This document shows, in pieces, positions 11,893 to 53,948 of a DNA stretch of 64,000 bases. The notes below the pieces were generated by a model that saw only the letters and a list, made by a program, of their open reading frames with translations, did not search any database and was not told the origin of the DNA. The DNA lies in the NCBI RefSeq assembly GCF_900177245.1, contig NZ_FXBM01000001.1, forward strand, positions 62,001 through 126,000, read 5' to 3'. The DNA comes from Rathayibacter oskolensis (GTDB taxonomy: Bacteria > Actinomycetota > Actinomycetes > Actinomycetales > Microbacteriaceae). The translations under genes were made by a program, and so were the position numbers. How positions within the stretch are numbered: position 1 is the stretch's first letter; each line of letters starts with the position of its first letter.

Positions 11893-11893
11893 C

Positions 11894-12319
11894 GTGGCCG
11901 GCGGGATGCGGAAGGACGGTGGCCCGGTGGTCAAGCGGAACACGTGGCAGCGCGAGGCCGTGCGCGAGGCGCTGACGGGGCGCGACGACTTCGTGAGCGC
12001 GCAGGGTCTGCACAGCGCGCTGCACGCCTCCGGATCGCCGATCGGACTCGCGACCGTCTATCGAGCGCTCTCGGACCTCGCGGGGGAGGGCGAGGCCGAC
12101 TCGCTGCAGTCGCCCGAGGGCGAGAGCCTCTACCGCGCGTGCACGCCCGGCACGCACCACCACCACCTGATCTGCCGGCGCTGCGGACTCACGGTCGAGA
12201 TCGCGGCCGACGAGGTCGAGACCTGGGCGCGCTCCGTCGCGGCGCAGAACGGATTCACCGACGCGCACCACGTCGTCGACGTCTTCGGCCTCTGCGCGGA
12301 CTGCACGCGCGCGCTCTGA
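11894..12319 (+). CDS. zur: Fur-family zinc uptake regulator Zur
   Basis: This 141-residue Fur-family protein has an N-terminal winged helix (NTWQREAVREALTGRDDFVSAQGLHSALHASG, GLATVYRALSDLAGEG). The dimerisation domain has the regulatory metal ligands HHHHLICRRCG and the structural second CxxC (CADC) near the C-terminus. With zinc bound it should repress the operon through the box at 9035-9051. The GTG at 11894 is just after the znuB stop; an internal GTG at VVKRN would also be plausible and removes 12 residues. The position at the end of the zinc operon supports Zur over Fur or PerR. Confidence 0.9.
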   Translation: MAGGMRKDGGPVVKRNTWQREAVREALTGRDDFVSAQGLHSALHASGSPIGLATVYRALSDLAGEGEADSLQSPEGESLYRACTPGTHHHHLICRRCGLTVEIAADEVETWARSVAAQNGFTDAHHVVDVFGLCADCTRAL

Positions 12320-12344
12320 TCCCGCGGAGCGGAGCGGAGCCCGG

Positions 12345-13010
12345 TCAGCCGACGGTGACGAGCGGGGGCACCGGACGCCGCGCCTGACGCAGCCAGACGA
12401 AGAAGCCGGTCAGCGTGAACGCGCCGTAGAAGACGTACATCAGGCCGGAGGCGTAGTAGCCCGCCGAGAACAGCAGCGGCACCCCGACGAGGTCGACCGC
12501 CACCCAGATCAGCCAGAACTCGACCCAGCCCTTGGCCATGCCGTACGTGGCCAGCAGCGACCCGACGAAGATCCACGCGTCGCTCCACACCGGCTCGTAC
12601 GAGCCGAGCGCGCGGAACACCGGAGTGAGCACCGCGGTGCCGCCGACCATCCCGGCCACCAGCAGACCGCGGGTACGCCAGGAGGCCCAGCGCGGCTCGA
12701 TCATGGTCGTCGCGGCGTCGGGGCGGTGCGTCCAGCGGTACCAGCCGTAGATGCTCACGATGATGAACATCACCTGGCGTCCCGCCTGGCCCAGGAGGTT
12801 GACGGGATTCGGGGTGTCGAACAGCGCGCCCATGAAGACGGTGAACAGCAGCACGTTGCCGACGAGGCCCACCGGCCACGCCCAGACCTTCCGGCGCATG
12901 CCGCCGAGGGCGCTGAGGAGCCCGAAGATGTTGCCGATGACCTCCCGCCAGAGGATCGTCTGGTCTCCGATCACGAGCTGCGCGTCGAACAGCCAGCGCA
13001 CGACGTCCAC
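12345..13010 (-). CDS. pnuC: Nicotinamide riboside transporter PnuC family
   Basis: This 221-residue protein has about seven hydrophobic segments and the PnuC hallmark IYGWYRWTHR (tryptophans in the permeation path), plus WPVGLVGNVLLFTVF and DAWIFVGSLLATYGMAKGWVEFWLIWVAVDL. It is a facilitator for nicotinamide riboside or a related vitamin precursor. GTG 13010 is preceded by GAGGGAG. There is no riboswitch-like leader in the 170 bases before it. It stands alone; its stop faces zur, 25 bases away. Members of this family also carry thiamine or riboflavin, so the substrate is likely but not certain. Confidence 0.87.
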   Translation of the reverse strand: MDVVRWLFDAQLVIGDQTILWREVIGNIFGLLSALGGMRRKVWAWPVGLVGNVLLFTVFMGALFDTPNPVNLLGQAGRQVMFIIVSIYGWYRWTHRPDAATTMIEPRWASWRTRGLLVAGMVGGTAVLTPVFRALGSYEPVWSDAWIFVGSLLATYGMAKGWVEFWLIWVAVDLVGVPLLFSAGYYASGLMYVFYGAFTLTGFFVWLRQARRPVPPLVTVG

Positions 13011-13185
13011 GTGGTCTCCCTCGGATCTGTTTCGAACCCACCCGTGCAACGACAGCGCGGGCCGGCCCATTCCGTCAGGGCAAGGCTCCCACGCCGATGT
13101 TTCGGCCGAGTACATCGCCGGGAGGTCGGAGCAGGGGAGCGCAACCGCCTGATGGGCCCGCTCCCTCCGCCCGTAGGCTGGCGGG

Positions 13186-14037
13186 ATGATCTCGCGGGTG
13201 CGCCTCCTCCTGGCCTCGTCGCACCCCGGGCCGACCCTCACGGTGACGGTCCTCGCGACCGTGATCGCGGCCGCCTCGGGCCACCCGCTCGGGACCGTGT
13301 TGCTGGTCGCCCTCGCGGTGCTCGCCGGGCAGCTCTCGATCGGGCTCGCGAACGACTGGATCGACGCCGATCGCGACCGGGCGGTCGGCCGCGCCGACAA
13401 GCCGGTCGCCCTCGGTCGGATCAGCGTCGGAGCAGTGCGTGCCGCCGCGTTCGGCACCGCGGCGGCGGCCGTGGTGCTCTCGCTCCTCCTCGGCCCGGTC
13501 GCGGCCGTCGCGCACCTGGTGCTCGTCGGCGCGGGCTGGGCCTACGACGCCGGGCTCAAGCGCACCGCGTGGTCGGTGGCTCCGTTCGTCGTCGCGTTCG
13601 GGCTGCTCCCGGTGGTGGCGGTCGCGGCGGGCGGCGGTCAGCTCCCCGCCTGGTGGGCGATCGCGACGGGCGCGGTGTTCGGAGTGGCGATCCACTGCAC
13701 GAACGTCCTCCCCGATCTCGTCGACGACGCGGCGACGGGGGTCCGCGGCTTCCCGCACCGGCTCGGGCTGAGGCTCTCGGGAGTCGTCGCGTTCGGCTCC
13801 CTCGTCGTCGCGGCCGTGCTGGTGCTGCTCGGGCAGCTCGTCGGCGACGAGCCGGTGCGCGGCGTCGGAGTCGCTCTCGCCGCTGTGGGCACCGCCGCGG
13901 TGGTCGTGCTCGCGGCCCTCGGCATCCGCCTCGTGACGACCGGGCCGCCGACCAGGACGCTGTTCCGGCTGGTGATCATCGCGTCGCTCGTGCTCGTGGT
14001 CGAGCTGGGCCTGTCGGGCGCGCGACTCGTCGCCTGA
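13186..14037 (+). CDS. UbiA-family prenyltransferase, integral membrane
   Basis: This 283-residue protein has about eight to nine hydrophobic segments. The first aspartate-rich motif reads NDWIDADRDRAVGRADKP (NDxxDxxxD type), and a second Asp site is NVLPDLVDDAATG. The conserved YDAGLKRTAWS loop is present. Enzymes of this family move a prenyl chain to an aromatic or sugar acceptor in the membrane. Whether it acts in menaquinone, lipid or secondary metabolism is not decided by context. It converges with an FAD monooxygenase, and the gap holds a 15-base triple repeat. Confidence 0.88.
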   Translation: MISRVRLLLASSHPGPTLTVTVLATVIAAASGHPLGTVLLVALAVLAGQLSIGLANDWIDADRDRAVGRADKPVALGRISVGAVRAAAFGTAAAAVVLSLLLGPVAAVAHLVLVGAGWAYDAGLKRTAWSVAPFVVAFGLLPVVAVAAGGGQLPAWWAIATGAVFGVAIHCTNVLPDLVDDAATGVRGFPHRLGLRLSGVVAFGSLVVAAVLVLLGQLVGDEPVRGVGVALAAVGTAAVVVLAALGIRLVTTGPPTRTLFRLVIIASLVLVVELGLSGARLVA

Positions 14038-14095: not shown

Positions 14096-15280
14096 TCAGG
14101 ACCAGCGCATCGCGTAGACCCGAGCGAGCAGCTCGCCCGTGGGCAGCGCCAGGGCCGATCGCAGCGCCGCTTCCCGGCCGAGCAGCGCGAGGCCGCCGGC
14201 CGGACGCCCGAGCGCCATGTTCGCCTCCGCCTGCCGCGCCGCACGACCCGCGACGACGCTCCGGCGTCGCGCGAAGGCGGGCCACGGCCCCTCGGCACCG
14301 GTGCGGACGGCGTCGGCCAGGATCGGCGCGAGCTCGGCGGCGTCGAGCCAGCCGAGGTTCATCCCCTGCCCGCCGATCGGGCTGATCTCGTGCGCCGCGT
14401 CGCCGATCAGCACGACCCTGCCGACTCCGGTGCGCTCGGCGGCGCGGCGGCGGACCCGGAAGCCGCTGGTCATCGTGCAGCTCGCCGGGTCGGGGGCCGC
14501 GCCGGTCCGCGCGCGCACGATGGAGGCGAGCGCCTCCGCCGCCTGCGGGTCGGGCTCGGGCCCCCAGGCCGGGTCTCCCGCATCGCCGTCGGCCCGGAGA
14601 GCGACGTACCGCCTCCGCCCGCCCGGCAGCGGGAACGACTCGACGACGCCGGCCGGGCCGACGTCGACCAGCGCCGACGACAGCCACGAGGCCTCCTCGG
14701 GGTCGGCGAAATCGCCCATGAGGTAGCGGTCGGGGTAGTCGCGGCCGGTGGTCGCGATGCCGAGCAGCTCGCGCACGGTGCTGCGCGCCCCGTCGGCGCC
14801 GACGACGAACGACGCGCTGATCGCGACGCCTCCGCCGCTCTGGTCGGTGCCGGTGACCTCGACGCGGTCGCGGTGCCGCCGCAGCGCGGTCACCGCGACA
14901 CCCGGCCGCAGCGCCCCCGGATCGAGCGCGAGCAGGCGATCGCGGAGGATCGCCTCCGTGCGCTGCTGGTCGAGCGTGACGACGTAGGGGTGCGTGCTCG
15001 AGGCCCGCGCGAACGACAGGGTGCCGAGGGTGCGCCCGCGGCTGCGCGCGACACCCTGCCGCACCAGGGCGGCCTCGGCCAGCACCGGCCCTGCGGCGTC
15101 GATGGCCGCGAACGCGTCGAGCGACGGCGGGTGGATGCCGATCGCGCGCGATCCCGCAGGCACGTCGGTGCGCCGCTCCCAGACCTGCACCGCGACCCCC
15201 GCGCGGGCGAGCAGCGCGCCGAGGAACACCCCGACCGGCCCACCGCCGACCACGAGCACGTCCGTCCGCGATGCCGCCAC
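14096..15280 (-). CDS. FAD-dependent monooxygenase (PHBH/group A type)
   Basis: This 394-residue flavoprotein has the Rossmann FAD motif VLVVGGGPVGVFLGALLARAG at the N-terminus, the DG motif VVGADGARSTVR and the GD motif VLIGDAAHEISPIGGQGMNLG. These are the three signatures of group A aromatic hydroxylases, which use NAD(P)H and oxygen. There is no signal peptide. The length is that of class A hydroxylases acting on small phenolics or polyketide/quinone-type molecules. GTG 15280 is the start. It faces the UbiA-like gene, so a link to prenylated quinones is possible but unproven. Confidence 0.88.
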   Translation of the reverse strand: MAASRTDVLVVGGGPVGVFLGALLARAGVAVQVWERRTDVPAGSRAIGIHPPSLDAFAAIDAAGPVLAEAALVRQGVARSRGRTLGTLSFARASSTHPYVVTLDQQRTEAILRDRLLALDPGALRPGVAVTALRRHRDRVEVTGTDQSGGGVAISASFVVGADGARSTVRELLGIATTGRDYPDRYLMGDFADPEEASWLSSALVDVGPAGVVESFPLPGGRRRYVALRADGDAGDPAWGPEPDPQAAEALASIVRARTGAAPDPASCTMTSGFRVRRRAAERTGVGRVVLIGDAAHEISPIGGQGMNLGWLDAAELAPILADAVRTGAEGPWPAFARRRSVVAGRAARQAEANMALGRPAGGLALLGREAALRSALALPTGELLARVYAMRWS

Positions 15281-15320
15281 GGGTCGAGCCTACGGACGGG
15301 GATGCCCGAAGTGGTGCGCG

Positions 15321-15857
15321 TCAGCCCCGCCGCCACCAGCGTCGGCGACGCGGGGGCTCCGGCTCGACCACGGCGGCCCGCCTCGCGGCCCGGCGCTCCG
15401 ACCACGCCGCGACCTCGGCGTCGACGTCGCGCAGCGGTGTCACCACCGGCGGGCCGCCGAGCAGCTGCCGCCGCGCCTCGACGACCCGGCTGTTGAAGTC
15501 GACGAGCATCGCTCGGACCTCGGACTCGCGGTTGAGGCGGTCGAGGTCGCCGTCCAGCCGCCGGTCCTCCGCACGCAGGAGGAACGCTGCCGGCCCGAGC
15601 CCGGTGAGGTTCTCGGTCTCGATCTTGCGGCGGATCCACCAGTCCGGATCGTGCGAGGCGCCGAGGCCCTGGAGCGGCTTGCCGGCTCCCGGGAGGTCGT
15701 CGAACTCCCCGCGCCGGATGGCCTGCTGGATCGTCGTCTCGATGAACGCGGCCCGGTCCTCCGCGTTCTCCGGCAGGGAGCCGGCGGTGGAGTCGTCACC
15801 GGCACCCCGCTCGGCGGCGTAGCGCGCGGCCCTGTCCCTGGCGTCGGACACGGTCAC
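15321..15857 (-). CDS. DUF1992 (DnaJ-C28-like) domain protein
   Basis: This 178-residue protein contains the DUF1992 core: IETTIQQAIRRGEFDDLPGAGKPLQGLG followed by DPDWWIRRKI and a helical region with LRAEDRRLDGDL. The C-terminus is Arg/Trp-rich (PPRRRRWWRRG). Homologues occur in many bacteria and in human DNAJC28; their function is unknown. ATG/GTG 15857 follows an AGGAGGTGACC ribosome site. Confidence 0.85.
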   Translation of the reverse strand: MTVSDARDRAARYAAERGAGDDSTAGSLPENAEDRAAFIETTIQQAIRRGEFDDLPGAGKPLQGLGASHDPDWWIRRKIETENLTGLGPAAFLLRAEDRRLDGDLDRLNRESEVRAMLVDFNSRVVEARRQLLGGPPVVTPLRDVDAEVAAWSERRAARRAAVVEPEPPRRRRWWRRG

Positions 15858-15885
15858 CTCCTGTGCTCTCGAATGCGGGCGCGAC

Positions 15886-16476
15886 TCACGGCCAGATCGG
15901 CGCGGCCTCGGCGGCGAGCGCCCGCAGGGACGTGGCGTCGATCACGGTCCGCGACTCGGGCACCCCCCGGTCGGGCCACTGGACGACGAGCTCGAGCGGG
16001 CCCTCCGGGGGCAGCGGCCAGAGCCACAGCCCCTCCTCGGAGGTGTGGAAGCGATCGGAGCCGCCCCCGCTTCCGCCGGTCATCGTGAGCACGTGCCGCG
16101 AGCCGTCACGCGGCTCCTGCTCGCCGCCCCACGACCGGTCGAGGACGAGGTGCTGACCGTCGGAGAGGCCGAGTCCGTACCGCATCCTGCCGGGCGAACC
16201 GACGCCGTGGTGGCCGTGGAAGCCCATCTGCGCCAGCTGCCACTCCTCCTCCGACATCCCGCCGCGCCTCATCCGGCGCTCGATCGAGAACTCGACGCCG
16301 GTGCTGTAGACGCGGACGCCGGTGGCGATGATCGCGACGTCCTCGGCCACCGCGAGCACCTCGGAGAGCGGGAAGAGGGCGGGGACCTCGTTCTCGGGCG
16401 GCGCGCGCCACGGCTCCGGCTCGCTCTCGACGGCGACGCTCTCGTCCTGGGGCGGGTCGGCGGGGAAGAAGTCCAT
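15886..16476 (-). CDS. Conserved hypothetical protein, 196 aa
   Basis: I do not recognise a named domain. The protein starts MDFFPADPPQDES with an acidic, proline-rich region. It then has a beta-rich part (VAIIATGVRVYSTGVEFSIERRMRR, LSDGQHLVLDRSW, LTMTGGSGGGSDRFHTSEEGLWLWPLPPEGPLELVVQWPDRGVPESRTVIDATSL). It is cytoplasmic, with no membrane segment. Similar acidic/beta proteins are common hypotheticals in actinobacteria. It lies 28 bases upstream of the DUF1992 gene on the same strand and may be co-transcribed with it. Confidence 0.75.
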   Translation of the reverse strand: MDFFPADPPQDESVAVESEPEPWRAPPENEVPALFPLSEVLAVAEDVAIIATGVRVYSTGVEFSIERRMRRGGMSEEEWQLAQMGFHGHHGVGSPGRMRYGLGLSDGQHLVLDRSWGGEQEPRDGSRHVLTMTGGSGGGSDRFHTSEEGLWLWPLPPEGPLELVVQWPDRGVPESRTVIDATSLRALAAEAAPIWP

Positions 16477-16529
16477 GCTCCACCGCACCACATCCCGCGA
16501 CGGCCGCGCAAGGCTCGCCACCGGGCGGC

Positions 16530-17081
16530 TCAGCCGTCGAGCGGGAACCCGGGCAGCCCGTCGATGCTCCGCGCGTTCCTCGTGGCACGGTACTCGGCCA
16601 TCGCCTCCGGGCCCTTCTTCTCGGCCTGCAGGCGGAGGAGGTCGCGCTCGCCGGTCAGCTCCATGATCGGCACTCCCCAGCCGCAGGCGTCGCTGATGCG
16701 GGTGAGGTCGACGGTGATGACCGCCCTCGTGCTCGGGTGCCCGGGATGCAACGCGACGACCTCGTCGAACGCGGTCTCGCCCGGCAGCGACACCGACCCG
16801 AGACCGTGCAGCCGGACGATGCGCGGGCGAGTGTCGAACGAGGCGAACATCAGGCAGACGCGCCGGTTCTCGCGGAGGTGCGCGATCGTCTCGACGCCGC
16901 TGCCGGTGTAGTCGACCCAGGCGACCCGGTGCGGGCTCAGCACCGAGAACGAGTCGAGGCCGCGCGGCGAGATGTTGACGTGCCCGTCCGCCGACAGGGG
17001 AGCGGTCGCGACGAACCACATCGGCTGCGCCCGGATCCACGCCGTGAGGGACTCGTCGAGGGCGTCGAAGATCGTGGCCAT
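16530..17081 (-). CDS. Pyridoxamine-5'-phosphate-oxidase-fold (split-barrel FMN) protein
   Basis: This 183-residue protein has the split-barrel pattern: MWFVATAPLSADGHVNISPRG near the N-terminus, VAWVDYTGSGVETIAHLRENRRVCLMFASFDTRPRIVRLHGLG in the core, and a C-terminal helix. Members bind FMN or F420/haem-type cofactors and often act as small reductases. It lacks the full PdxH C-terminal motif, so it is not a true PNP oxidase. ATG 17081 stands 53 bases from a divergent YdcF-like gene. Confidence 0.85.
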   Translation of the reverse strand: MATIFDALDESLTAWIRAQPMWFVATAPLSADGHVNISPRGLDSFSVLSPHRVAWVDYTGSGVETIAHLRENRRVCLMFASFDTRPRIVRLHGLGSVSLPGETAFDEVVALHPGHPSTRAVITVDLTRISDACGWGVPIMELTGERDLLRLQAEKKGPEAMAEYRATRNARSIDGLPGFPLDG

Positions 17082-27701: not shown

Positions 27702-28619
27702 TCAGCCCAGCCCGAGCGCGATCCCGTCGAGGATGTCGTGCGCGGTGGTCGTGACCGAGTCGAGCGCCGGCGACGCCTCCTGCACCGCTCTCAGGACCTC
27801 GCTCCAGATCAGCGCCCCGGCGGCGAGCACGTCCTCGCGTCCGCTCCGGACGTAGGGCAGCGCGGCGCTCTCGGCGGGCGAGAGCGCGGCGAGCTCGTCG
27901 CAGGCCCTGATCACCTCGGCGAGCGGGAGTGCCGCCTCCAGAGCCGCGCGATCGTAGCTCTCGAGCCGCAGCACGTGCGCCGTGATGGTGAGGACCGTGG
28001 CCGCGACTCCGACGACGCTCCGCGCCCGCGTCAGATCGACGGAGGAGGCGGCCAGAGCCGCGCGGACGTCGCCGCGGATCGCCTCCCGCTCCTCGGCCGT
28101 CGGAGCGGCGGCCCGCCGGTGCCGCTCGGTGAGCCGCACGCTGCCGACGTCCATCGAGTGCGCCTCCATCGGCTCGGCGTCTCCGAGCACCAGCTCGGTG
28201 GAGCCTCCGCCGAGGTCGACGACGAGCACGGGCCGAGCGGAGTCGACGGCCGAGACCGCTCCGCGGAAGGACAGCGCCGCCTCCTCCTCGCCGCTGATCG
28301 TCTCGGGTCGCACGCCGATGATCCGCTCGACCTCGTCGAGGAACTCGTCGCGGTCCGCGGCGTCGCGGGTCGCCGAGGTCGCGACGAAGCGCAGGCGCTC
28401 GGCGCCGCTCTCGCGGGCGAGCACGGCGTACTCGCGGGTCACCGCGAGGGTGCGCTCGAGCGCGTGCTGGTCGAAGCGCCCCGTCCGGTCGACTCCGTGG
28501 CCGAGGCGCACGATCTCGGTGCGTCGCAGCATGTCGACGAGCCGGCCTCCGTCGACGTCGGCGATCAGCAGTCGGAGGGAGTTCGTGCCGCAGTCGAAGG
28601 CGGCGACGCGGGTGGGCAT
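27702..28619 (-). CDS. Ppx/GppA-family exopolyphosphatase
   Basis: This 305-residue ASKHA-fold phosphatase has phosphate-1 motif [12 protein letters not shown], the catalytic-region SGEEEA and phosphate-2 motif [14 protein letters not shown]. It has only the two core domains, like the short actinobacterial Ppx proteins and unlike the ~500-residue E. coli enzymes. It should remove terminal phosphate from polyphosphate or pppGpp. ATG 28619 is divergent from the PrpD-like gene. Confidence 0.9.
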
Positions 28620-28691
28620 GCGCCCATTCTGGCGGGCCTCGCGCGCGGGAGCGCGACGATAGATTGGGCGGGACGAGCCGAAGGAGCACCC

Positions 28692-30215
28692 GTGCACGAA
28701 CACCACGTCCGCGTCCACCGCAGCGACGAGGAGCTCCCGCGACACGGGCAGCTGGCCCACGCGATCGCCCAGGTGGCCGCCGACCCGGTCGAGGTCGACT
28801 CCGAGGTCGCCGAGATGGTCGTCAACCGCGTCATCGACAACGCGGCCGTCGCCACCGCCTCCCTGCTGCGCCCCCCCGTCGTGGCCGCGCGCTCGCAGGC
28901 CCTCGCGCACCCCGCCTCCATCGGCGGCGACGGCGCGAACGTCGTCGGCGTCGACCCCGCCCGGCGCGTCTCGCCCGAGTGGGCGGCGTGGGCCAACGGG
29001 GTCGCCGTGCGCGAGCTCGACTACCACGACACCTTCCTCGCGGCCGAGTACTCGCACCCGGGCGACAACATCCCCCCGCTGATCGCGGTGGCCCAGCACG
29101 CGGGCCTCCCGGGCGCGCAGCTGCTCCGCGGCATCGTCACCGGCTACGAGATCCAGGTCGACCTCGTCCGCGCGATCAGCCTGCACCGGCACAAGATCGA
29201 CCACGTCGCGCACCTCGGCCCCTCGGCCGCCGCCGGGATCGGCACCCTGCTCGGCCTCGACGTCGCCACCATCGAGCAGGCGGTCGCGCAGGCGCTGCAC
29301 ACCACGACCGCGACCCGGCAGTCGCGCAAGGGCGAGATCTCGAGCTGGAAGGCGTACGCCCCCGCCTTCGCGGGCAAGGCGGCGATCGAGGCGGTCGACA
29401 GGGCGATGCGCGGCGAGACCAGCCCGTCGCCGATCTACGAGGGCGAGGACGGCGTGATCGCCTGGCTGCTCGACGGCCCCGACGCCTCCTACGACGTGCC
29501 GCTGCCCGACGCGGGCGAGGCGAAGCGCGCGATCCTCGACACGTACACGAAGGAGCACTCGGCCGAGTACCAGGCGCAGGCCCTGATCGACCTGGCGCGC
29601 CGCCTCCACCACGCGCACCCCGAGGCGGCCGATCCCGACCGTGTCGAGCGCATCGTCATCCACACCTCGCACCACACCCACTCGGTGATCGGATCGGGAG
29701 CGAACGACCCGCAGAAGTACGACCCGACCGCCTCGCGCGAGACGCTCGACCACTCCGTGCCCTACATCTTCACGGTCGCGCTGCAGGACGGCGCCTGGCA
29801 CCACGAGCGCAGCTACGCGCCCGAGCGGGCGGCTCGCCCCGACACCGTCGCGCTCTGGCACCGCACGACGACGGAGGAGGACGCGGAGTGGACGCGCCGC
29901 TACCACTCCACCGACCCGGCCGAGAAGGCGTTCGGCGCTCGCGTCGAGATCGTGCTCACCGACGGCTCGACGATCGTCGACGAGATCGCGGTGGCGGACG
30001 CGCACCCGCTCGGGGCGCACCCGTTCACGCGCGAGCAGTACGTGTCGAAGTTCCGGACGCTGGCCGAGGGGGTGCTGGAGGCCGTCGAGATCGAGCGCTT
30101 CCTCGAGCTCGCGCAGCGCCTGCCCGAGCTGACCCCGGAGGAGGTCGGGCGGCTCACGGTCGTCGCGGCGCCCGGCGTGCTCGCGTCGGTGGAGTCGCCG
30201 CGCGGCCTGTTCTAG
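28692..30215 (+). CDS. prpD: MmgE/PrpD family dehydratase (2-methylcitrate dehydratase-like)
   Basis: This 507-residue protein has the MmgE/PrpD layout: an N-terminal helical domain ([33 protein letters not shown]) and a later alpha/beta lid (CTG-like [14 protein letters not shown], then [26 protein letters not shown]). The length and [15 protein letters not shown] motif match PrpD that dehydrates 2-methylcitrate in propionate breakdown. prpB and prpC are not beside it, so an alternative dicarboxylate substrate is possible. GTG 28692 follows GAAGGAGC. Confidence 0.85.
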
Positions 30216-45886: not shown

Positions 45887-45952
45887 CGCCTGCCGTGCCG
45901 AGGCGGTGACCGCGAGGCGTGAAGAAACCGATTTTCGTGATTCGGACGTCTC

Positions 45953-45967
45953 TGAAAACTTTGTTCA
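45953..45967. promoter_or_regulatory. Candidate RpiR operator
   Basis: TGAAAACTTTGTTCA has TGAA/TTCA ends and five of seven inner positions symmetric. This resembles the TGAAA-N-TTTCA sites of MurR/RpiR proteins. It lies in an AT-rich island 54 bases before the regulator ATG. A further ATTTTC (45931-45936) stands upstream. Confidence 0.45.
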
Positions 45968-46020
45968 CCGTTCACCTGGCCGGCCTCTGAGCGTCACGAG
46001 GCGGGTCTAGCGTCGGACGC

Positions 46021-46878
46021 ATGACGATCACGGACCGCGCGACAGGCATCACGGAGCACATCCGTGCGACGCTGCCGACCCTCTCACCCGCTGAACGGCG
46101 AGTGGCGACCGAACTGCTGCGCGACCCGCAGGCCGTCATCCACCAGTCCGTCACCGAGCTGGCGCTGCGCGCGGAGACGTCGGCGGCCACCGTCGTCCGG
46201 CTCTGCACGAGCGTCGGTCTGCGCGGGTTCCAGGACCTCAAGATCACTCTGGCCCGCGAGACCATCCCCACCGATCAGCGCGTGCTCGGCGCGATCCTCC
46301 CCGACGACGACGACCGCGACATCGTCCGCAAGGTGCTCGGCGGCTCCATCGCCGCGCTCGAGCAGGCCGTCTCCTCCGTCGACACGGGCGCGGTCACGCG
46401 CATCGCCGACACCATCCTCGGCGCCCGCCGTGTCCACTTCGGCGCGGTCGGCACCTCCGCCCCCCTCGCCTCCGATGCCGCCTACCGACTCACCACCATC
46501 GGGATCGACGCCACCTTCCACCCGGACGTGCACGCCCAGCACGTCGGCGCGAGGATGCTCGGCCCCGAGGACGTGTTCTTCGCGATCAGCCACACCGGCT
46601 CGACCTTCGAGACCCTCGCCACCGCCAAGGCGGCCCGGGCCGCCGGTGCGACGATCGTGGCGCTCACCAGCTTCGCCAGTTCGCCCCTGCTGGACGTCGT
46701 CGACCACGCCGTGATCGCCGGGAGCCCGGAGGTCGCGTACCGGGTCGAGGCGATGGCCAGCCGGATCGTGCACCTCGCCCTCTTCGACGCGATCTTCGTG
46801 CTGCTCACCCTGCGCAGCCCCGACAGCGCCGACTACCAGAACCTCACCGCCGACGTGCTCATCGAGCACCGCATCTAG
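46021..46878 (+). CDS. MurR/RpiR-family regulator with SIS domain
   Basis: This 285-residue protein has an N-terminal HTH (LSPAERRVATELLRDPQAVIHQSVTELALRAETSAATVVRLCTSVGLRGFQDLKITLAR in outline) and a C-terminal SIS domain (HFGAVGTSAPLASDAAYRLTTIG, FFAISHTGSTFETLATAKAARAAGATIVALTS). SIS domains bind phosphosugars. It is the first gene of a same-strand run ending at 53948. It presumably senses the phosphosugar handled by that operon. Confidence 0.9.
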   Translation: MTITDRATGITEHIRATLPTLSPAERRVATELLRDPQAVIHQSVTELALRAETSAATVVRLCTSVGLRGFQDLKITLARETIPTDQRVLGAILPDDDDRDIVRKVLGGSIAALEQAVSSVDTGAVTRIADTILGARRVHFGAVGTSAPLASDAAYRLTTIGIDATFHPDVHAQHVGARMLGPEDVFFAISHTGSTFETLATAKAARAAGATIVALTSFASSPLLDVVDHAVIAGSPEVAYRVEAMASRIVHLALFDAIFVLLTLRSPDSADYQNLTADVLIEHRI

Positions 46879-46978
46879 GCCACACCCCCCCCGGAACGCT
46901 CCCACTCGACGGACCCCGCCCGTCGATGCCTCCAGCGCGCCCGGAGCCCAGCCCTCACCCCTAGCGAAGGACACCCCT

Positions 46979-49153
46979 GTGCACGGACACATCACCGACG
47001 GCGACACCGGCGCCCCGCGCTCCGGAGTCGTCGTCACCAACGGCGTCGACGTCACCGCGACCGACGCCGACGGCCGCTACGACCTGCCCGACCGCGGCGA
47101 CTTCGTCGTCATCACCCGCCCCTCGGGCACGACGGCCGCCACCTGGTGGCGCCGCCGCGCCGAGCTCGACGGCACCGGGCGAGCCGACTTCGCGCTCACC
47201 GCCGTCGATCAGCCGCTGCCCTACCGCTTCGTCCACCTCACCGACACCCACATGACGGTCCCGGAGGGAGTCGACCCCGACGCCGACGCCCACCGCGACA
47301 ACTTCCTCCTCTACCGCGAGGGCAGCCTCCCCGCCCAGATCGACGAGTTCCTCGCCGAGCTCGACCGGCACGCACCGGACGTGCAGAGCATCATGATCAC
47401 GGGAGACCTCGTCGACCACGGCCTGCCGGCGCAGTACCGCGCCTACCTCGAGGTCATGGCGACGAGCCCGGTGCCGGTGCACCTCATCCCGGGCAACCAC
47501 GACCACATGAACGGCGGCCACGACACCGTCGTGAGCCGGAACAACTACCTCACCAACGCCGGCACCGTCGAGAACTACGAGCGCTTCGTCGGACCCCGCT
47601 GGTACAGCTTCGACGTCGCCGGACTGCACGTGGTCGCCATGGACTGGCACAGCCACGAGCTCGGCCTGGACCACGAGCAGCAGAACGCGTGGGTCGCGAA
47701 CGACCTCGCCGCGCTCACCCCGGGCGCCCCCTGGATCCTGCTCTTCCACGACCAGCCGGGGAGCTCGCTCGTCGACCACCTGCCCTGGCAGCCGATCGCC
47801 TCGTTCTCGGGCCACTGGCACACCTCGCGCGTCGTCGACGTCGAGGGCACGATGCACGTCAACTCGCCCACCACCTTCTTCGCCAGCCTCGACTACAGCC
47901 CCCCGGCCTACCGCATCGTCACCTGGGACGGCACGGGCATCGCCCTCGAGACCCGCACCCTGACGGCCGAGAGCGAGCCGAGCGTCCGCACGGCCACCTT
48001 CGCCGCCTCCCGCGCCGAGCCCGCCTCGGGGGAGGTGCTCTGGCGCTCGCAGCTCACCGGAGCAGCGCACCGGCAGTCCGCGAGCATCGACGGCACCCTC
48101 GTCCTCGCCGGCTCCCAGATCGAGGACCGCGCGGCGGGCACCGTGGAGGCGTTCGACCTCGCCTCGGGCGAGCGGGTCTGGAGCGCCGCCACCTCCTCGG
48201 CCGTGAAGACGACTCCGCTCGCCGCCGGCGACCTCGTGATCGCCGCCGAGGTCAGCGGAGACGTGACCGCCCACCACCGCGAGACCGGCGACCTCGTCTG
48301 GCGCACGCCGTCGAGCGATCCGCTCCGCCGGTTCGCGTGGGGCGGGCTCGCTCTCGCCGACGGCCGCGTCTTCGTCGGCGACCAGGCCGACCTGCGCTGC
48401 CTCGACGCCGCCACCGGAGCCGTGATCTGGCGCCGCACGGACCTCTCGCCGCACCACAACCTCGTGAACCACGCGGCCCCGCTGATCGTCGGCGACCTGC
48501 TCGTGATGGGCTTCTGGCCCACGCCGCAGCACCCCGTCGGCCTCGACGCTCGCACCGGCGAGAGCGTCTGGGCGACCGAGGAGCCCGACACCGCTCAGGC
48601 GTTCAAGACCTTCAAGCGCCTGCTGATCATGGGCACCGCAGCGTTCGACCCGGCGACCGACGCCGCCTACCTCCCCGCCTTCGGAGGCACCACCCGCGTC
48701 GATGGCGCCACCGGCGCCGTGCGGTGGATCGCCGAGCACCCCGGCGGGTTCAGCCCCTCGACTCCGCTCGTCACCGAGCGCGGCATCGTCGCGACGGCGG
48801 CGGGCCAGGGGATCCGGATGCTCGACAGCGAGACCGGAGCGACGATCTGGGACCTCGACATCGCCGGGGACGCTCCGTTCCCGATGGCGTCGTACACCAA
48901 GATCCCGCACCCGGTCCTGGCCGCTCCGACGCTGGTGGACGGCGAGCTGCTGCTGCCGGGCCTCGACGGAGTGATCCGCCGCGTCGATTTCGACGGCCGG
49001 CAGATCGGCGAGAGCGCACTCGGTGTGCCGCTCGCCTCGAGCCTGACCGACGCCGGCGGTGCGCTCGTGGCGGTCGGGGTCGACGGCGGCGTGCTGGCGT
49101 TGGAGCGCACCGTCGCCGGTGCCCGCGTGCTCGCGCAGGAGTCGGTCTCGTGA
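46979..49153 (+). CDS. Cytoplasmic metallophosphoesterase fused to a PQQ-type beta-propeller
   Basis: This 724-residue protein has three parts. Residues 1-78 form an immunoglobulin/transthyretin-like lead domain (MetallophosN type: GHITDGDTGAPRSGVVVTNGVDVTATDADGRYDL). Residues 83-330 form a calcineurin-like phosphoesterase with Asp89/His91 (DTH), Asp143 (GDLVDH), Asn173-His174 (GNHDH), His257 and His279/His281 (GHWH), so both metals should bind. Residues ~345-715 form a PQQ/WD-type beta-propeller with repeated GxVxWR/ATGxxxW strands. No signal peptide is present, which is unusual for the propeller and lead domains. GTG 46979 start; its stop overlaps the first permease. Substrate is probably a phosphoester imported by the neighbouring ABC system. 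Confidence 0.88.
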   Translation: MHGHITDGDTGAPRSGVVVTNGVDVTATDADGRYDLPDRGDFVVITRPSGTTAATWWRRRAELDGTGRADFALTAVDQPLPYRFVHLTDTHMTVPEGVDPDADAHRDNFLLYREGSLPAQIDEFLAELDRHAPDVQSIMITGDLVDHGLPAQYRAYLEVMATSPVPVHLIPGNHDHMNGGHDTVVSRNNYLTNAGTVENYERFVGPRWYSFDVAGLHVVAMDWHSHELGLDHEQQNAWVANDLAALTPGAPWILLFHDQPGSSLVDHLPWQPIASFSGHWHTSRVVDVEGTMHVNSPTTFFASLDYSPPAYRIVTWDGTGIALETRTLTAESEPSVRTATFAASRAEPASGEVLWRSQLTGAAHRQSASIDGTLVLAGSQIEDRAAGTVEAFDLASGERVWSAATSSAVKTTPLAAGDLVIAAEVSGDVTAHHRETGDLVWRTPSSDPLRRFAWGGLALADGRVFVGDQADLRCLDAATGAVIWRRTDLSPHHNLVNHAAPLIVGDLLVMGFWPTPQHPVGLDARTGESVWATEEPDTAQAFKTFKRLLIMGTAAFDPATDAAYLPAFGGTTRVDGATGAVRWIAEHPGGFSPSTPLVTERGIVATAAGQGIRMLDSETGATIWDLDIAGDAPFPMASYTKIPHPVLAAPTLVDGELLLPGLDGVIRRVDFDGRQIGESALGVPLASSLTDAGGALVAVGVDGGVLALERTVAGARVLAQESVS

Positions 49154-50073
49154 CCGCCCTCCTCGAGCGTCCCGAGACCGACGCCCCGGAGGTTCCCGAC
49201 CGGCCCCGTCGCGGTCGCTCGCGCCTCGCACCGATCCTCTTCGTCGCGCCGGCGGTGATCGGCATCACCCTGTTCGTGGTCGTCCCGGCCGTGCTGTCGC
49301 TCGTGGCGAGCTTCTTCTCCGTCCCGCTCGCCGGTGGCGAGTGGAGCTTCGTCGGTCTCGCCAACTTCGAACGGATCCTCTCCGATCCCGCCGTGCTGCA
49401 GTCGATCGGCAACACCCTCCTCTACTCGCTGATCACGATCGTGCCGAGCCTCGCGATCGGCCTCGCGCTCGCGCTCCTGGCCGACAGCGTCACCACCGGT
49501 CGCGCGCTCGTGCGCACGCTGCTGTTCCTCCCGATGACCGCCAACCTGGTCGCGATGGCCGTCGTGTTCCGGTGGGTGTTCGCCTTCCAGGGCGGATTCG
49601 TGAACCAGCTGCTCGGTTTCGTCGGCATCGGCGCCGTGAACTGGCTCGGCGACACGTCGACCTCGCTGGTGACCGTGGCGCTCGTGGGCGTCTGGCGCGG
49701 CGCCTCCTTCGCGATGATGATCTTCTTCGCGGGCCTGGCCACCGTGCCGGGCACGATCCACGAGGCGACGAGGGCCGAGGGCATCCGCGGCTGGACGAAG
49801 CTCACGCGGATCACCCTGCCGATCATGAAGCCGACGGTGGTGTTCGCCGCGGTGATCACGATCCTCGGCTCCGTGCAGGCGTTCGACACGATCAACGTGA
49901 TGACGCAGGGCGGCCCCCAGGGCTCCTCCGAGACCGTCCTCACGATGATCTGGAAGCTCGGCTTCTCGTACTTCGACCTCGGCGCGGCGTCGGCGCTCTC
50001 GCTGCTGCTGCTCGTGGTGCTGATCGGCGTCGGGGTCCTGCAGCGCAAGGTCCTGGCCGGAGGCTCGCGATGA
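49150..50073 (+). CDS. Sugar-type ABC permease (UgpA/MalF-like)
   Basis: This 307-residue protein has about six membrane segments and the permease loop EATRAEGIRGWTKLTRITLPIMKPTVVFAAVITILGSVQAFDTINVMTQGGPQGSSETVL, close to the UgpA style. GTG 49150 overlaps the phosphoesterase stop by 4 bases and the next permease by 4 bases, so the two functions are translationally coupled. Glycerol-3-phosphate, its diesters or other CUT1 substrates are possible ligands. Confidence 0.93.
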   Translation: MTALLERPETDAPEVPDRPRRGRSRLAPILFVAPAVIGITLFVVVPAVLSLVASFFSVPLAGGEWSFVGLANFERILSDPAVLQSIGNTLLYSLITIVPSLAIGLALALLADSVTTGRALVRTLLFLPMTANLVAMAVVFRWVFAFQGGFVNQLLGFVGIGAVNWLGDTSTSLVTVALVGVWRGASFAMMIFFAGLATVPGTIHEATRAEGIRGWTKLTRITLPIMKPTVVFAAVITILGSVQAFDTINVMTQGGPQGSSETVLTMIWKLGFSYFDLGAASALSLLLLVVLIGVGVLQRKVLAGGSR

Positions 50074-50891
50074 GCGCCGCCTACCGCCCGCTGAAGTGGC
50101 TGCTGATCACCCTCGCCGTGCTCATCTCGGTGTTCCCCTTCTACTGGATGCTGCGCACCGCCGTCGCGCCCGCCGACGAGGTCTACTTCGACGGGATCTC
50201 CCTCCTGCCCTCGAGCATCGATCTCGGCAACTTCGTCCGCGCCTGGACGAAGGCCGACCTCGGCACGGCGGTGCTCAACGGGGCACTCGTCACCGTCGCG
50301 ATCCTCGCGGCGCAGCTGCTGACCTGCATCCCCGCCGCCTACGTCCTCGCGAAGGTGCGGATGCGCGGCTCCGGTCTGGTGCTCGCCCTCGTGCTCGGCT
50401 GCCTCCTGGTCCCCAGTCAGGTGACGCTGATCCCGACCTTCATCGGGATCAACATGGTCGGCCTCGGCGACACGCTCGCCGGGCTGGTGCTGCCGTTCGT
50501 CACCAGCGCGTTCGGGATCTTCCTCCTGCGCCAGCAGATGATGTCGATCCCGGAGTCGCTGATGGAGGCGTCGCGCACCGACGGGCTCGGGCACGGTCGC
50601 ACTCTCCTGCACGTCGTGATCCCGATGGCCGGCCCCGGCATCGCCGCCTTCAGCGTCTTCTCGGTGTTCGTGCACTGGAACGAGTACCTGTGGCCGCTGC
50701 TGGTGGCCCGCAGCCCCGAGATCGCCACCCCTCCTCTCGCGCTCGCTGTGTTCCAGCAGGCCGAGATCGGTTACGACTACTCCGCGCTCGCCGCCGCGGC
50801 CGCCATCGTCACGGCGCCCGTCGTCATCCTCTTCCTCGTCGCGCAGAAGCGCTTCGTGCAGGGGATGAGCGGCAGCGAGATCCCCGGCTGA
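50070..50891 (+). CDS. Sugar-type ABC permease (UgpE/MalG-like)
   Basis: This 273-residue protein has about six membrane segments, the N-terminal FPFYWMLRTAVAPADEVY and the loop EASRTDGLGHGRTLLHVVIPMAGPGIAAFSVFSVFVHWNEYLWPLLVARSPEIATPPLALAVFQ. These are MalG/UgpE family marks. ATG 50070 overlaps the previous stop. Confidence 0.93.
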   Translation: MSAAYRPLKWLLITLAVLISVFPFYWMLRTAVAPADEVYFDGISLLPSSIDLGNFVRAWTKADLGTAVLNGALVTVAILAAQLLTCIPAAYVLAKVRMRGSGLVLALVLGCLLVPSQVTLIPTFIGINMVGLGDTLAGLVLPFVTSAFGIFLLRQQMMSIPESLMEASRTDGLGHGRTLLHVVIPMAGPGIAAFSVFSVFVHWNEYLWPLLVARSPEIATPPLALAVFQQAEIGYDYSALAAAAAIVTAPVVILFLVAQKRFVQGMSGSEIPG

Positions 50892-50944
50892 GACCCCTCC
50901 CTCCTCTCACCCCCACGTTCTTCGACTCAAGGAGCTCCACCGTC

Positions 50945-52246
50945 ATGTCCGCACCCCGTCTCCTCGCCGTCGGCGCCCTCGCGCTGTCCTCGGCTCTCCT
51001 CCTCTCGGCCTGCTCCGGCTCGTCCGCCGCCTCCGACCCCGACGCGAGCGTCGCCGCGGCAGCCGCGATCGACAGCTGCGACCCCGCCGCCACGACCATC
51101 AGCGCCGTCTTCGGCCAGCAGGCCACGGAGGCGATGACCGTCGCCGCCGCGAACCTGCAGGCCGAGTACCCCGGCCTCACGATCGACGCGACCCCGCAGC
51201 AGACCACCAGCTATGACGAGCTGACCAAGCAGATCGTCGCCGACATCGCGGTGGGCAAGCGCCCCGACGTGATCATGACCGGCCTCGGCCAGCTGCGCTT
51301 CTGGGTCGACACCTACGCGCCGATGCCGATCGACCCGTCGACCCTGCCCGAGACCTACCAGTCGCAGTTCCTCGGCGCCGGCACCGTCGATGACACGGTC
51401 TACCTCGCCCCCGCTCAGATCTCGGCTCCGGTGCTGCTCGTGAACGAGCAGCTGGCCGACGAGGCCGGAGTCGACGCCGCCGACATCTCCACGCTCGACG
51501 AACTCGTCGCCGCGGCCGAGAAGGTCACCGCGGTCACCGGGTCCCCCTCCGTCACCATCCCCACCGACGGACTCGCCGACTGGTTCGGCCAGGCCTTCGT
51601 GCAGGGCTCCGGCGGCACGTTCGTGAACGAGGACGGCACCGCCGGCTTCGGCGACGACACCGGTGTCGAGGCGCTCTCGATCTGGTCCACCCTCGGGGCC
51701 GAGAAGCTCGAGCTCGGAGTCGGCCAGCAGGACGCCATCGCTCAGTTCGCGGGCGGCAACGCGGCCTTCATGGTCACCACCACCTCGCTCATCGCCACGA
51801 TGAGCACCACGATCAACGGAGCGTTCGACTGGACCCCGGTCGACCTGCCGAGCGTCGGCGGCGAGGGCGGTGCGCTGCCCGCCGGCGGCAACGGCTGGGT
51901 CGTCCTCTCGGAGGACGCCTGCCAGGCCGCCTTCTCGAGCGCGCTGGTCTCAGAGCTGCTCTCGACCGAGGCCGTGCTGAAGGCCTCCGGGACCGCCTAC
52001 AGCTACATCCCCGTCGACTCCGCCGCCGCGGCCGAGCTGCTCGCGAGCGACGCGGCGACTCCCCAGCTCACCTACGCCTGGAGCTACGACAAGGACCTCA
52101 CCCCCTGGGGCGGCTTCGCCGGCGACACGACCGTCCAGGTGAACGACACGTTCCGCTCGATGGCCCAGAGGCTGGCCACCGGAGCGGACGCGGCCGAGAC
52201 GGTCGGCGCGGCCGTCACCACCATCGACGGCATCGTCGGGAAGTGA
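50945..52246 (+). CDS. Sugar-type ABC substrate-binding lipoprotein
   Basis: This 433-residue protein has lipobox LLSACS after a short signal peptide. The mature part begins with ISAVFGQQATEAMTVAAANLQAEYPGLTIDATPQQTTSYDELTKQIVADIAVGKRPDVIMTGLGQLRFWVDTYAPMPIDP in outline, as in family 1 binders of the UgpB kind. The Ser-Ala-rich linker fits a tethered lipoprotein. AAGGAGC precedes ATG 50945. Its stop overlaps the ATPase start. Ligand not assigned. Confidence 0.9.
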   Translation: MSAPRLLAVGALALSSALLLSACSGSSAASDPDASVAAAAAIDSCDPAATTISAVFGQQATEAMTVAAANLQAEYPGLTIDATPQQTTSYDELTKQIVADIAVGKRPDVIMTGLGQLRFWVDTYAPMPIDPSTLPETYQSQFLGAGTVDDTVYLAPAQISAPVLLVNEQLADEAGVDAADISTLDELVAAAEKVTAVTGSPSVTIPTDGLADWFGQAFVQGSGGTFVNEDGTAGFGDDTGVEALSIWSTLGAEKLELGVGQQDAIAQFAGGNAAFMVTTTSLIATMSTTINGAFDWTPVDLPSVGGEGGALPAGGNGWVVLSEDACQAAFSSALVSELLSTEAVLKASGTAYSYIPVDSAAAAELLASDAATPQLTYAWSYDKDLTPWGGFAGDTTVQVNDTFRSMAQRLATGADAAETVGAAVTTIDGIVGK

Positions 52247-53337
52247 CGACGATGGCCTCCGTCGAGCTCGCCTCCCTGACCAAGACCTTCGGCGCCGTCC
52301 GTGCGCTCGACGGCATCGACCTCCGCATCGAGGACGGCGAGCACGTCGCCGTCCTCGGGCCCTCGGGCTCCGGCAAGTCCACGCTCCTCCGGGTGATCGC
52401 GGGCCTCGAGGACGCCGACTCCGGCACCGTCTCGTTCGCGGGCGTCTCGCAGGCCGGGATCCCGGCCCACCAGCGCGACGCGGCGATCGTGTTCCAGCAC
52501 TTCGCCCTCTACCCCCACCTGTCCTCGCTCGAGAACATCACCCTCGGGCTCCGGCACGGCCTCGGCCTCCCCAAGAAGGAGGCGGAGGCGCGGGCCAGGG
52601 ACATCGCCGGCCGGATGCAGGTCGAGCACCTCCTCGACCGCCGGCCCAAGCAGATGTCGGGCGGGCAGCGGCAGCGCATCGCTCTCGCGCGGGCCCTGGC
52701 CCGCCGCAGCGGCATCGTGCTGCTCGACGAACCGCTCTCGGGCCTCGACGCTCAGCTCCACGCCGTCCTGCGTCTCGAGATCGCGACCCTGCTGCGCTCG
52801 GTCGGTGCGACCGGGATCAACGTCACGCACGACCAGCTCGACGCCATGGCGATGGCCGACCGCATCGCGGTCATCCGCGACGGACGCATCGAGCAGCTGG
52901 GCACGCCCGACGAGCTCTACGCGGCACCGGCGACGCTCTTCGTCGCCGGGTTCATCGGCACCCCTCCGATGAACCTGATGACCGTCGGCGAGGATCAGGC
53001 GTCGCCGTTCGGCGCGGTCCGCGGTGCGGCCGGTCTGACGCTTGGCGTGCGCGCCGAGCAGCTGCGGCTCGCGAGCGGCCCGGGCGACGGCTGGTCGATC
53101 ACGGGAGTCGTCGAGCTGGTCGAGCCGACCGGCAAGGACCGCGTCGTGCACCTGCGCACGGCGGAGGGCGCCGCGGTCGCGCTGCGCTGTGACGTGGTCG
53201 AGTCGCCGCGGGTCGGCTCCGCGGTGAGCGCCGTCTGCGGGCGCTCGGACGTCCACGTCTACGACTCCCTCACCGGCGCGCGCCTCGGCGACGCGGTGGA
53301 GCGCGGACTGCTGCCCGTCGAGCGGGTCACCGCGTGA
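52243..53337 (+). CDS. Sugar-type ABC ATPase (MalK/UgpC-like)
   Basis: This 364-residue protein has Walker A GPSGSGKST, Q-loop FQHFALYPHLS, signature MSGGQRQRIALARAL, Walker B IVLLDEPLSGLD and switch THDQLDAMAMADR, plus a C-terminal TOBE/OB regulatory part after ~250. This is the MalK/UgpC form. GTG 52243 overlaps the SBP stop. Its own stop overlaps the HAD gene. It completes a full importer. Confidence 0.93.
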   Translation: MTTMASVELASLTKTFGAVRALDGIDLRIEDGEHVAVLGPSGSGKSTLLRVIAGLEDADSGTVSFAGVSQAGIPAHQRDAAIVFQHFALYPHLSSLENITLGLRHGLGLPKKEAEARARDIAGRMQVEHLLDRRPKQMSGGQRQRIALARALARRSGIVLLDEPLSGLDAQLHAVLRLEIATLLRSVGATGINVTHDQLDAMAMADRIAVIRDGRIEQLGTPDELYAAPATLFVAGFIGTPPMNLMTVGEDQASPFGAVRGAAGLTLGVRAEQLRLASGPGDGWSITGVVELVEPTGKDRVVHLRTAEGAAVALRCDVVESPRVGSAVSAVCGRSDVHVYDSLTGARLGDAVERGLLPVERVTA

Positions 53338-53948
53338 GCCTGTCGGACACGGCGGTGCTGTTCGACTGGAACGGCACCGTCGTGCTCGACGCCGACCGGG
53401 CTCGTGACGCGTTGAACGCCGTGCTGCTGTCGCGGGCCCGCCCCGAGCTGAGTCTCGCCGGCTTCAGCGCCGAGTTCTCTCTCCCGATGTCGGCGATGTT
53501 CGGCCGGCTCGGCGCCGAGGACGCTGTCGCGGCGGAGGAGGAGTGGAACGCGCACATGGCGACGCGTCCGTCCGTCGCCAGGGACGGCGCCCACGAGGCA
53601 CTCGGCGCACTGGCCGAGGGCGGGGCGTTCCTCGGCATCGTCTCCGCCGCCGCCCGCGTCAGCGTCGAGTACGACCTCGACAGCCTCGGCTTCGCGGTGG
53701 AGTGGGACGCGGTGGAGGCGCCGACGGTCGACAAGCTGGCGGTGCTCCAGCGCTACCGCGGGCGACGCGAGCGAGCGGTCTACGTGGGCGACACGGCCTA
53801 CGACGTGAGCTGTGCGCGGCGGGCGGGCTACCTCGCGGTCGCGGTGGCGGGCGGCTACAACCCGCCGGATGTCCTGCGGGCGGCGGGGGCCGACCACGTC
53901 GTCTCGGATCTGCGGGAGCTTCTGCCGCTGCTCGGAGGCGCGGACTGA
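53334..53948 (+). CDS. HAD-family protein with DxN motif I
   Basis: This 204-residue HAD-fold protein has motif I FDWNGTV, so the nucleophile Asp11 is present but the usual second Asp is Asn13. Motif II is SAAAR, the motif III lysine is in TVDKLAV, and motif IV is VGDTAYD. The second Asp normally serves as acid/base in phosphatases, so activity may be altered or the substrate unusual. It is the last gene of the RpiR operon (GTGA overlap). It may dephosphorylate the imported product. Confidence 0.85.
   Translation: MSLSDTAVLFDWNGTVVLDADRARDALNAVLLSRARPELSLAGFSAEFSLPMSAMFGRLGAEDAVAAEEEWNAHMATRPSVARDGAHEALGALAEGGAFLGIVSAAARVSVEYDLDSLGFAVEWDAVEAPTVDKLAVLQRYRGRRERAVYVGDTAYDVSCARRAGYLAVAVAGGYNPPDVLRAAGADHVVSDLRELLPLLGGAD

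Follow-up and report, generated by a model that had tools for sequence, protein, structure and literature searches.

A portable actinobacterial gene cassette built around a metallophosphoesterase-propeller enzyme: a candidate route for phosphodiester scavenging

Which compound is taken up and degraded by the products of a tightly packed operon in Rathayibacter oskolensis is the question addressed here. The operon fills positions 46021-53948 of the analyzed stretch of DNA (64,000 nucleotides of contig NZ_FXBM01000001.1, assembly GCF_900177245.1; the window in the following) with seven genes on the plus strand, as found by open reading frame (ORF) and domain scans. They encode an RpiR regulator, a metallophosphoesterase (MPE) fused to a propeller domain (the MPE-propeller), two permeases, a substrate-binding protein (SBP), an ATPase and a HAD protein. 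A sequence-only reading had described this gene set, and all seven genes were recovered at the positions and with the domains that it had given. Its statement that nearly all of them are joined by 4-base overlaps goes too far as worded, since the successive junctions measure +100, -4, -4, +53, -4 and -4 bases, and it holds for four of the six.

The answer that we favor, and that we regard as rather probable, is a self-contained, portable cassette for the scavenging of phosphodiesters. A CUT1 importer, whose SBP would recognize the phosphate group, may take up the intact phosphodiester, and the MPE would cut it inside the cell into an alcohol and a phosphomonoester. The propeller would serve as a scaffold for binding or as a lid, rather than as a quinoprotein. 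The HAD protein would then free phosphate from the monoester. RpiR might sense one of the phosphorylated intermediates, probably the monoester, with its SIS domain and would control the operon via two sites located 30 bp apart upstream of rpiR. Uptake of a phosphodiester or phosphorylated polyol, followed by internal hydrolysis and dephosphorylation, had also been suggested in the sequence-only reading; the phosphodiester route is the best-supported interpretation in view of the SBP pattern, the unlike HADs found in the last slot, a phosphonate-linked clade of the enzyme and the operator-like sites; the substrate class and the order of the steps are inferred. To our knowledge, few dedicated bacterial uptake routes for intact phosphodiesters are known beyond Ugp and its kin. 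The cassette would be a portable candidate for such a route, with an apparently unstudied enzyme build.

A genome-collection scan resulted in 13 loci (L001-L013), all of them from actinobacterial records. The homology search on the neighborhood of the phosphoesterase revealed that the seven-gene order is kept in all nine loci with 10 kb present on either side of the MPE match (L001-L005 and L007-L010, the full loci), and because of this identical order the operon is not a product of chance. L011 and L012 possess a HAD of another kind than the full loci, L006 lies on a contig of 3.5 kb that covers the gene set in part, and L013 contributes a fragment of ~70 residues. At the DNA level, the window and its nearest relative L001 share a single block (45953-53939, 84.7%) and 69 bases elsewhere in the window. 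This block extends from the proximal operator-like site into the final codons of the HAD gene, and such a single block from operator to HAD end argues for a portable cassette. The DNA matches of L056 and L002 to the window are likewise confined to the cassette, apart from 108 bases elsewhere in the case of L056.

Near full-length matches to the MPE-propeller are sporadic across the genomes scanned. They occur in at least five of 249 genomes of the family of L001 (E below 1e-200), and a class-level scan gave matches in at least 15 of 394 genomes (E up to 1e-20), nine of these covering only part of the model. The enzyme was found in at least three of 397 genomes of the order to which the L011 genome belongs; since the family, class and order scans scored no more than two to four candidates in each genome, these counts are lower bounds. 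Two further families contain it in 4 of 35 and 2 of 22 genomes (E up to 1e-30). ORF clustering of the cassette flanks, whose genes are unannotated, revealed no other recurring gene, save generic ABC ATPases and pairwise sharing, for instance by L003 and L005 from Cryobacterium, and the attempt to derive the ligand from flanking genes yielded nothing. An open-literature search gave no paper that could be tied to the seven-gene cassette and none on the build of the MPE-propeller.

A phosphodiester is the predicted class of ligand because the SBP, which carries the lipobox LSAC, shows a phosphate-ligand pattern. In PMC12718374, the phosphate-ligand residues of UgpB are given as Tyr, Ser, Ser and Tyr. 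The corresponding positions in the window SBP are Y90, S160, T279 (Thr replacing Ser) and Y354, with which the alignment to the Thermus protein agrees, and they are invariant in 12 of 12 cassette SBP rows. The pattern is complete (score 4 of 4) in E. coli UgpB and in all 14 cassette SBPs (the 12 rows plus L047 and L052), among which L011/L012 and L003/L005 are near-copies; in a separate alignment the SBPs of L048, L049, L055 and L056 also score 4. From 67 listed matches to PF01547, the 15 best of each of two genomes with a cassette were taken as controls; these 30 proteins scored 0 (22 proteins), 1 (seven) or 2 (one), with reference scores of 1 for YcjN and 0 for MalE in the same final alignment. 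An earlier set of controls was poor, with only 13 of the 30 loci aligned over 180 columns (nine scores of 0, three of 1 and one of 2), and was replaced by this one.

The closest known counterpart of the cassette is found in the ugpBAECQ operon for the uptake of glycerol-3-phosphate and glycerophosphodiesters in E. coli. Both combine an SBP, two permeases, an ATPase and a phosphodiesterase-type gene in one operon, the phosphate-ligand pattern of the SBP is common to both, and the permeases and ATPase of the cassette find their best matches among the Ugp models. However, the cassette possesses a calcineurin-type MPE-propeller instead of the phosphodiesterase UgpQ (GDPD), and it additionally contains the RpiR regulator and the HAD phosphatase.

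By profile, the best solved relatives of the SBP belong to the PDB series 7c0f-7c19, whose titles name a dinucleotide-binding protein bound to uridylyl-3'-5'-phospho-guanosine (UpG). In a fold search with the SBP model, this protein takes ranks 1-11 and many of ranks 14-32, and sugar SBPs occupy much of the remainder, with UgpB at ranks 38 and 47. The dinucleotide-binding protein is presumably identical with the U3G-binding protein of Thermus thermophilus described in PMC12718374. It shares 20-22% identity with the window SBP, and the PDB titles list mutations of its residues Y56, S127 and T240, which correspond in the alignment to Y90, S160 and T279. That this best solved relative binds UpG counts in favor of a phosphodiester as the ligand of the cassette SBP. 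One could also assume that dinucleotides or other nucleic-acid fragments are imported, cut to nucleoside and nucleotide and then dephosphorylated, the more so as the MPE distantly resembles nucleotide phosphodiesterases. We consider this highly improbable, since the cassette SBP profile has Asp and Thr in place of Y224 and Y246 (assuming a numbering offset of 2), two residues mutated in PDB titles and presumed to contact the bases, and since RpiR and the sugar-phosphatase-like HADs described below better fit sugar or polyol phosphates.

The second step, hydrolysis of the imported diester, would be catalyzed by the MPE-propeller. The enzyme consists of a transthyretin-like lead (MetallophosN, residues 5-53), the Metallophos domain (83-281) and a BamB-like propeller (about 335-711). 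DxH, GD, GNHD, H and GHxH form the metal-ligand motif set of class III metallophosphoesterases, and all of these motifs are present and unchanged in each of the 11 MPE rows. The set is thereby shared with 2zo9/3d03 (which we take to be GpdQ), Rv0805, Icc and SpdA; in contrast to these, the MPE is fused to the lead and the propeller, and no NCBIfam phosphodiesterase cut-off is reached. The propeller has an 8-bladed, BamB-like fold, and the matches of a fold comparison with the MPE-propeller model are filled by it, so that they speak to the propeller half alone. Unlike BamB, the protein has neither signal peptide nor lipobox and is enzyme-fused, and it stays under the BamB cut-off of NCBIfam (TIGR03300, 77.9 versus 285.2 bits).

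PQQ quinoprotein dehydrogenases are characterized by a vicinal Cys pair and an export signal. The MPE-propeller has a single Cys, no CC and seven [TS]G-x3-W repeats. Its N-terminus has no hydrophobic stretch, in line with the lack of a signal peptide already pointed out from the sequence. None of the NCBIfam cut-offs for PQQ dehydrogenases is reached (TIGR03075, 57 of 480 bits; TIGR03074, 18.7 of 833). The broad PQQ propeller model of Pfam, PF01011, passes on the whole protein (31.7 bits, cut-off 26.7), yet no single stretch does so. A PQQ enzyme is therefore disfavored, and of the two roles considered in the sequence-only reading, binding platform or quinoprotein, the BamB-like fold, the missing export signal and the scores below the dehydrogenase cut-offs favor the scaffold; the PF01011 score is the point on the other side.

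Release of phosphate from the resulting monoester is attributed to the last gene. HADs of the DWNGT type are present in the window, in all nine full loci, in L047-L049, L055 and L056 and in the importer-less L053, those of L047-L049, L053, L055 and L056 being 42-56% identical to the window HAD. In the window HAD, S104, K134, D153 and D157 are invariant across eight rows. Directly after the ATPase gene, L011 and L012 possess a DLDGT and L052 a DWDGT HAD, both of the canonical DxD type, which share 28% identity with each other and match the DWNGT lineage with E 0.003 or worse. The occurrence of HADs from unlike lineages in one slot is an argument for a need to hydrolyze a phosphomonoester. The best NCBIfam models of the DxD proteins are hexitol phosphatase HxpB (72 bits, cut-off 191) and fructose-1-phosphate/6-phosphogluconate phosphatase (101 bits, cut-off 215), whereas the DWNGT lineage has its top scores, all weak, with phosphoglycolate phosphatase models and a predicted phosphatase in the PDB. 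A sugar or polyol phosphate as the monoester is hinted at by RpiR and by the similarity of the L012 and L052 HADs to sugar phosphatases. The motif FDWNGT resembles the FDWAGT of PhnX-type C-P hydrolases. An assignment of the HAD to these hydrolases is nevertheless disfavored, K134 (motif III) being the sole invariant Lys in the eight rows and DxD HADs of the sugar-phosphatase kind sharing the slot. In L048 (16008-16649) and L049 (15423-16490), two loci closely related to each other, an additional metallophosphoesterase-like gene directly follows the cassette HAD, with a Pfam match in L049 only.

Two operator-like sites of the form TGAAA-N5-TTTCA precede rpiR (Table 1). The proximal one is the sole match of at least 9/10 within the 64 kb window (spacers of 4-6, plus-strand reading of the palindromic motif). 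Paired sites 30 bp apart upstream of rpiR were found in the window, L001-L005 and L007, and L056 also has a pair at 30 bp. L008 and L010 have a single clear site, L009 has two at 25 bp, and L016, L017, L049, L053 and L055 have at least one site of 9/10, next to sites of 8/10 in L012 and a weak one in L048. Since the motif had been chosen by visual inspection of the very sequences on which it was then scored against mononucleotide shuffles, the shuffle figures overstate its significance. The site evidence is to be taken as indicative, and RpiR might bind at these candidate sites.

Table 1. Genes of the cassette and candidate operator sites in the window
Feature	Position	Strand	Characteristics
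Distal operator-like site	45923..45937	+	AGAAACCGATTTTCG; 8/10 to TGAAA-N5-TTTCA; 30 bp from proximal site
Proximal operator-like site	45953..45967	+	TGAAAACTTTGTTCA; 9/10 to TGAAA-N5-TTTCA
MurR/RpiR regulator	46021..46878	+	HTH_6 and SIS domain, 285 aa
Three-domain phosphoesterase (MPE-propeller)	46979..49153	+	724 aa, GTG start; MetallophosN, Metallophos, PQQ_2; predicted cytoplasmic
CUT1-type permease 1	49150..50073	+	top NCBIfam model UgpA, 120 bits, cut-off 335
CUT1-type permease 2	50070..50891	+	top NCBIfam model UgpE, 120 bits, cut-off 297
Lipoprotein SBP	50945..52246	+	UgpB/UpG-type phosphate-ligand pattern Y90, S160, T279, Y354
Importer ATPase	52243..53337	+	top NCBIfam model UgpC, 330 bits, cut-off 432
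HAD protein	53334..53948	+	motif I FDWNGT (DxN)

Several observations weigh against phosphodiester import by this cassette. Among the NCBIfam models, the SBP comes closest to that of a generic carbohydrate SBP (25.2 bits, cut-off 299), ordinary sugar SBPs follow close behind in its profile and fold lists, and its structure model is of modest quality (pLDDT 72.7). The phosphate-ligand score also depends on the alignment: E. coli UgpB scores 3 rather than 4 in two other alignments, because the first Tyr is left unaligned, and the sugar-type SBP YcjN scores 3 in one alignment and 1 in two others. The glycerol ligands of UgpB (Glu88, Arg393) and its Trp188/191 pair were not seen in the cassette SBP, in a region where the alignment is gappy, so that plain glycerol-3-phosphate is not favored, and permeases and ATPase all stay below the UgpA, UgpE and UgpC cut-offs. 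The best match of the MPE to a solved structure reaches E 2.3e-6 across about 90 residues, which is weak, as are all of its best PDB matches (class III metallophosphoesterases, Lmo2642 and a purple acid phosphatase). In the window HAD, motif I has Asn in place of the second Asp of the canonical DxD, and no operator site stands out in L047, L050 and L052.

Alternatively, the importer could be an ordinary sugar importer, and the MPE-propeller and HAD could act on an internal phosphorylated metabolite or signaling nucleotide instead of the imported compound. The membership in the CUT1 family and the carbohydrate SBP match are in agreement with this, RpiR regulators usually sense sugar phosphates, and the MPE has weak matches to cyclic nucleotide phosphodiesterase models of NCBIfam (29.9 bits, cut-off 400). 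Nevertheless we regard this explanation as unlikely, since the phosphate-ligand pattern is missing from all 30 control SBPs and no glycosidase, kinase or isomerase is present among the seven genes, the flanking genes of the relatives being unannotated.

Outside the cassette, a related clade connects the enzyme family to phosphonate breakdown. In an MPE tree of 22 rows (midpoint root; L005, L006, L013, L018, L051 and second copies of named loci left out), L016, L017, L050 and L053 form a group (100/100) that is separate from the 17 importer-linked rows, and L054 sits on a very long branch, so that its placement is unsure. In L016 (7429-14969) and L017 (7455-14969), located on Rhodococcus and Dietzia plasmids, and in L050, a phosphonate-type gene set is divergent from the MPE-propeller and RpiR genes. 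It comprises a PhnZ-like HD oxygenase, a PhnY-like oxygenase, a YaaH carrier, a second 2OG oxygenase and a methionine-synthase-like protein, and an open-literature search gave no paper on it. The models were run on L017 and L050: that of the methylphosphonate hydroxylase PhnY gives 260.8 and 246.1 bits, respectively (cut-off 500), and that of the Phn-HD oxygenase 212.5 (just under the cut-off of 214.6) and 245.4 bits (over it). The L016 oxygenases are 80% and 85% identical to their L017 counterparts. At L053, the RpiR and MPE genes are accompanied by a DWNGT HAD gene in divergent orientation, the gene of an MFS carrier and a methionine-synthase-like gene with 56% identity to its counterpart at the PhnYZ loci. 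In the distant relative L054 (about 26% identity), PhnD- and PhnC-type genes lie downstream, and both score above the cut-off of one model for phosphonate importers.

It is conceivable from these loci that the importer takes up a phosphonate ester, from which the MPE frees the phosphonate, and that partner proteins complete the breakdown. Besides the PhnY- and PhnZ-like neighbors in three members of the separate clade and the PhnD- and PhnC-type genes in L054, the site motif, which also occurs between the divergent genes of L016 and L017, would fit. For the window cassette we judge this improbable: neither genes for oxidative cleavage of the PhnY/PhnZ type nor another C-P cleaving enzyme were recognized among its seven genes with Pfam and NCBIfam, and the canonical DxD HADs in the same slot indicate phosphomonoesters. 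Moreover, L050 is without a clear operator site, and L053, the fourth member of the clade, has no PhnYZ genes but a DWNGT HAD.

Scavenging of phosphodiesters remains our preferred function for the cassette itself. A broader proposal, which is tentative and which we do not yet think probable, is that RpiR and the MPE-propeller form the constant core of a modular actinobacterial platform for the scavenging of phosphorus esters. The MPE-propeller would be the first-step diesterase for phosphate and phosphonate esters, and importers (CUT1, MFS, perhaps PhnCDE) as well as last-step modules (DxN HAD, DxD HAD, PhnY/PhnZ-like oxygenases) might be swapped, with the regulator and the TGAAA-N5-TTTCA site controlling the attached module.

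In L054 (11414-18454), an endonuclease/exonuclease/phosphatase-family protein and a LysR regulator accompany the PhnD- and PhnC-type genes, with a further ORF (14604-16775) lying between them. L051 contains an MPE relative and no PhnYZ genes at the locus. There, at 11007-13677, the match to RpiR, next to the MPE-propeller relative, comes in two parts about 1.8 kb apart, and a 670-aa ORF on the opposite strand (11209-13221) extends between and over these parts. An annotated gene row on a Pseudosulfitobacter plasmid (L019, 4975-11580) consists of an SBP, two permeases and two ATPases together with an Icc/SpdA-like metallophosphoesterase of 269 aa and a tyrosine-phosphatase, which is possibly the same logic of import, diesterase and monoesterase built from other parts. 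Elsewhere in the window, at 27738-30215, there is an 825-aa ORF whose first 337 residues have no Pfam match at E 0.001 and whose MmgE/PrpD domains begin only at residue 338; it is either a fusion or an ORF with a wrongly extended start.
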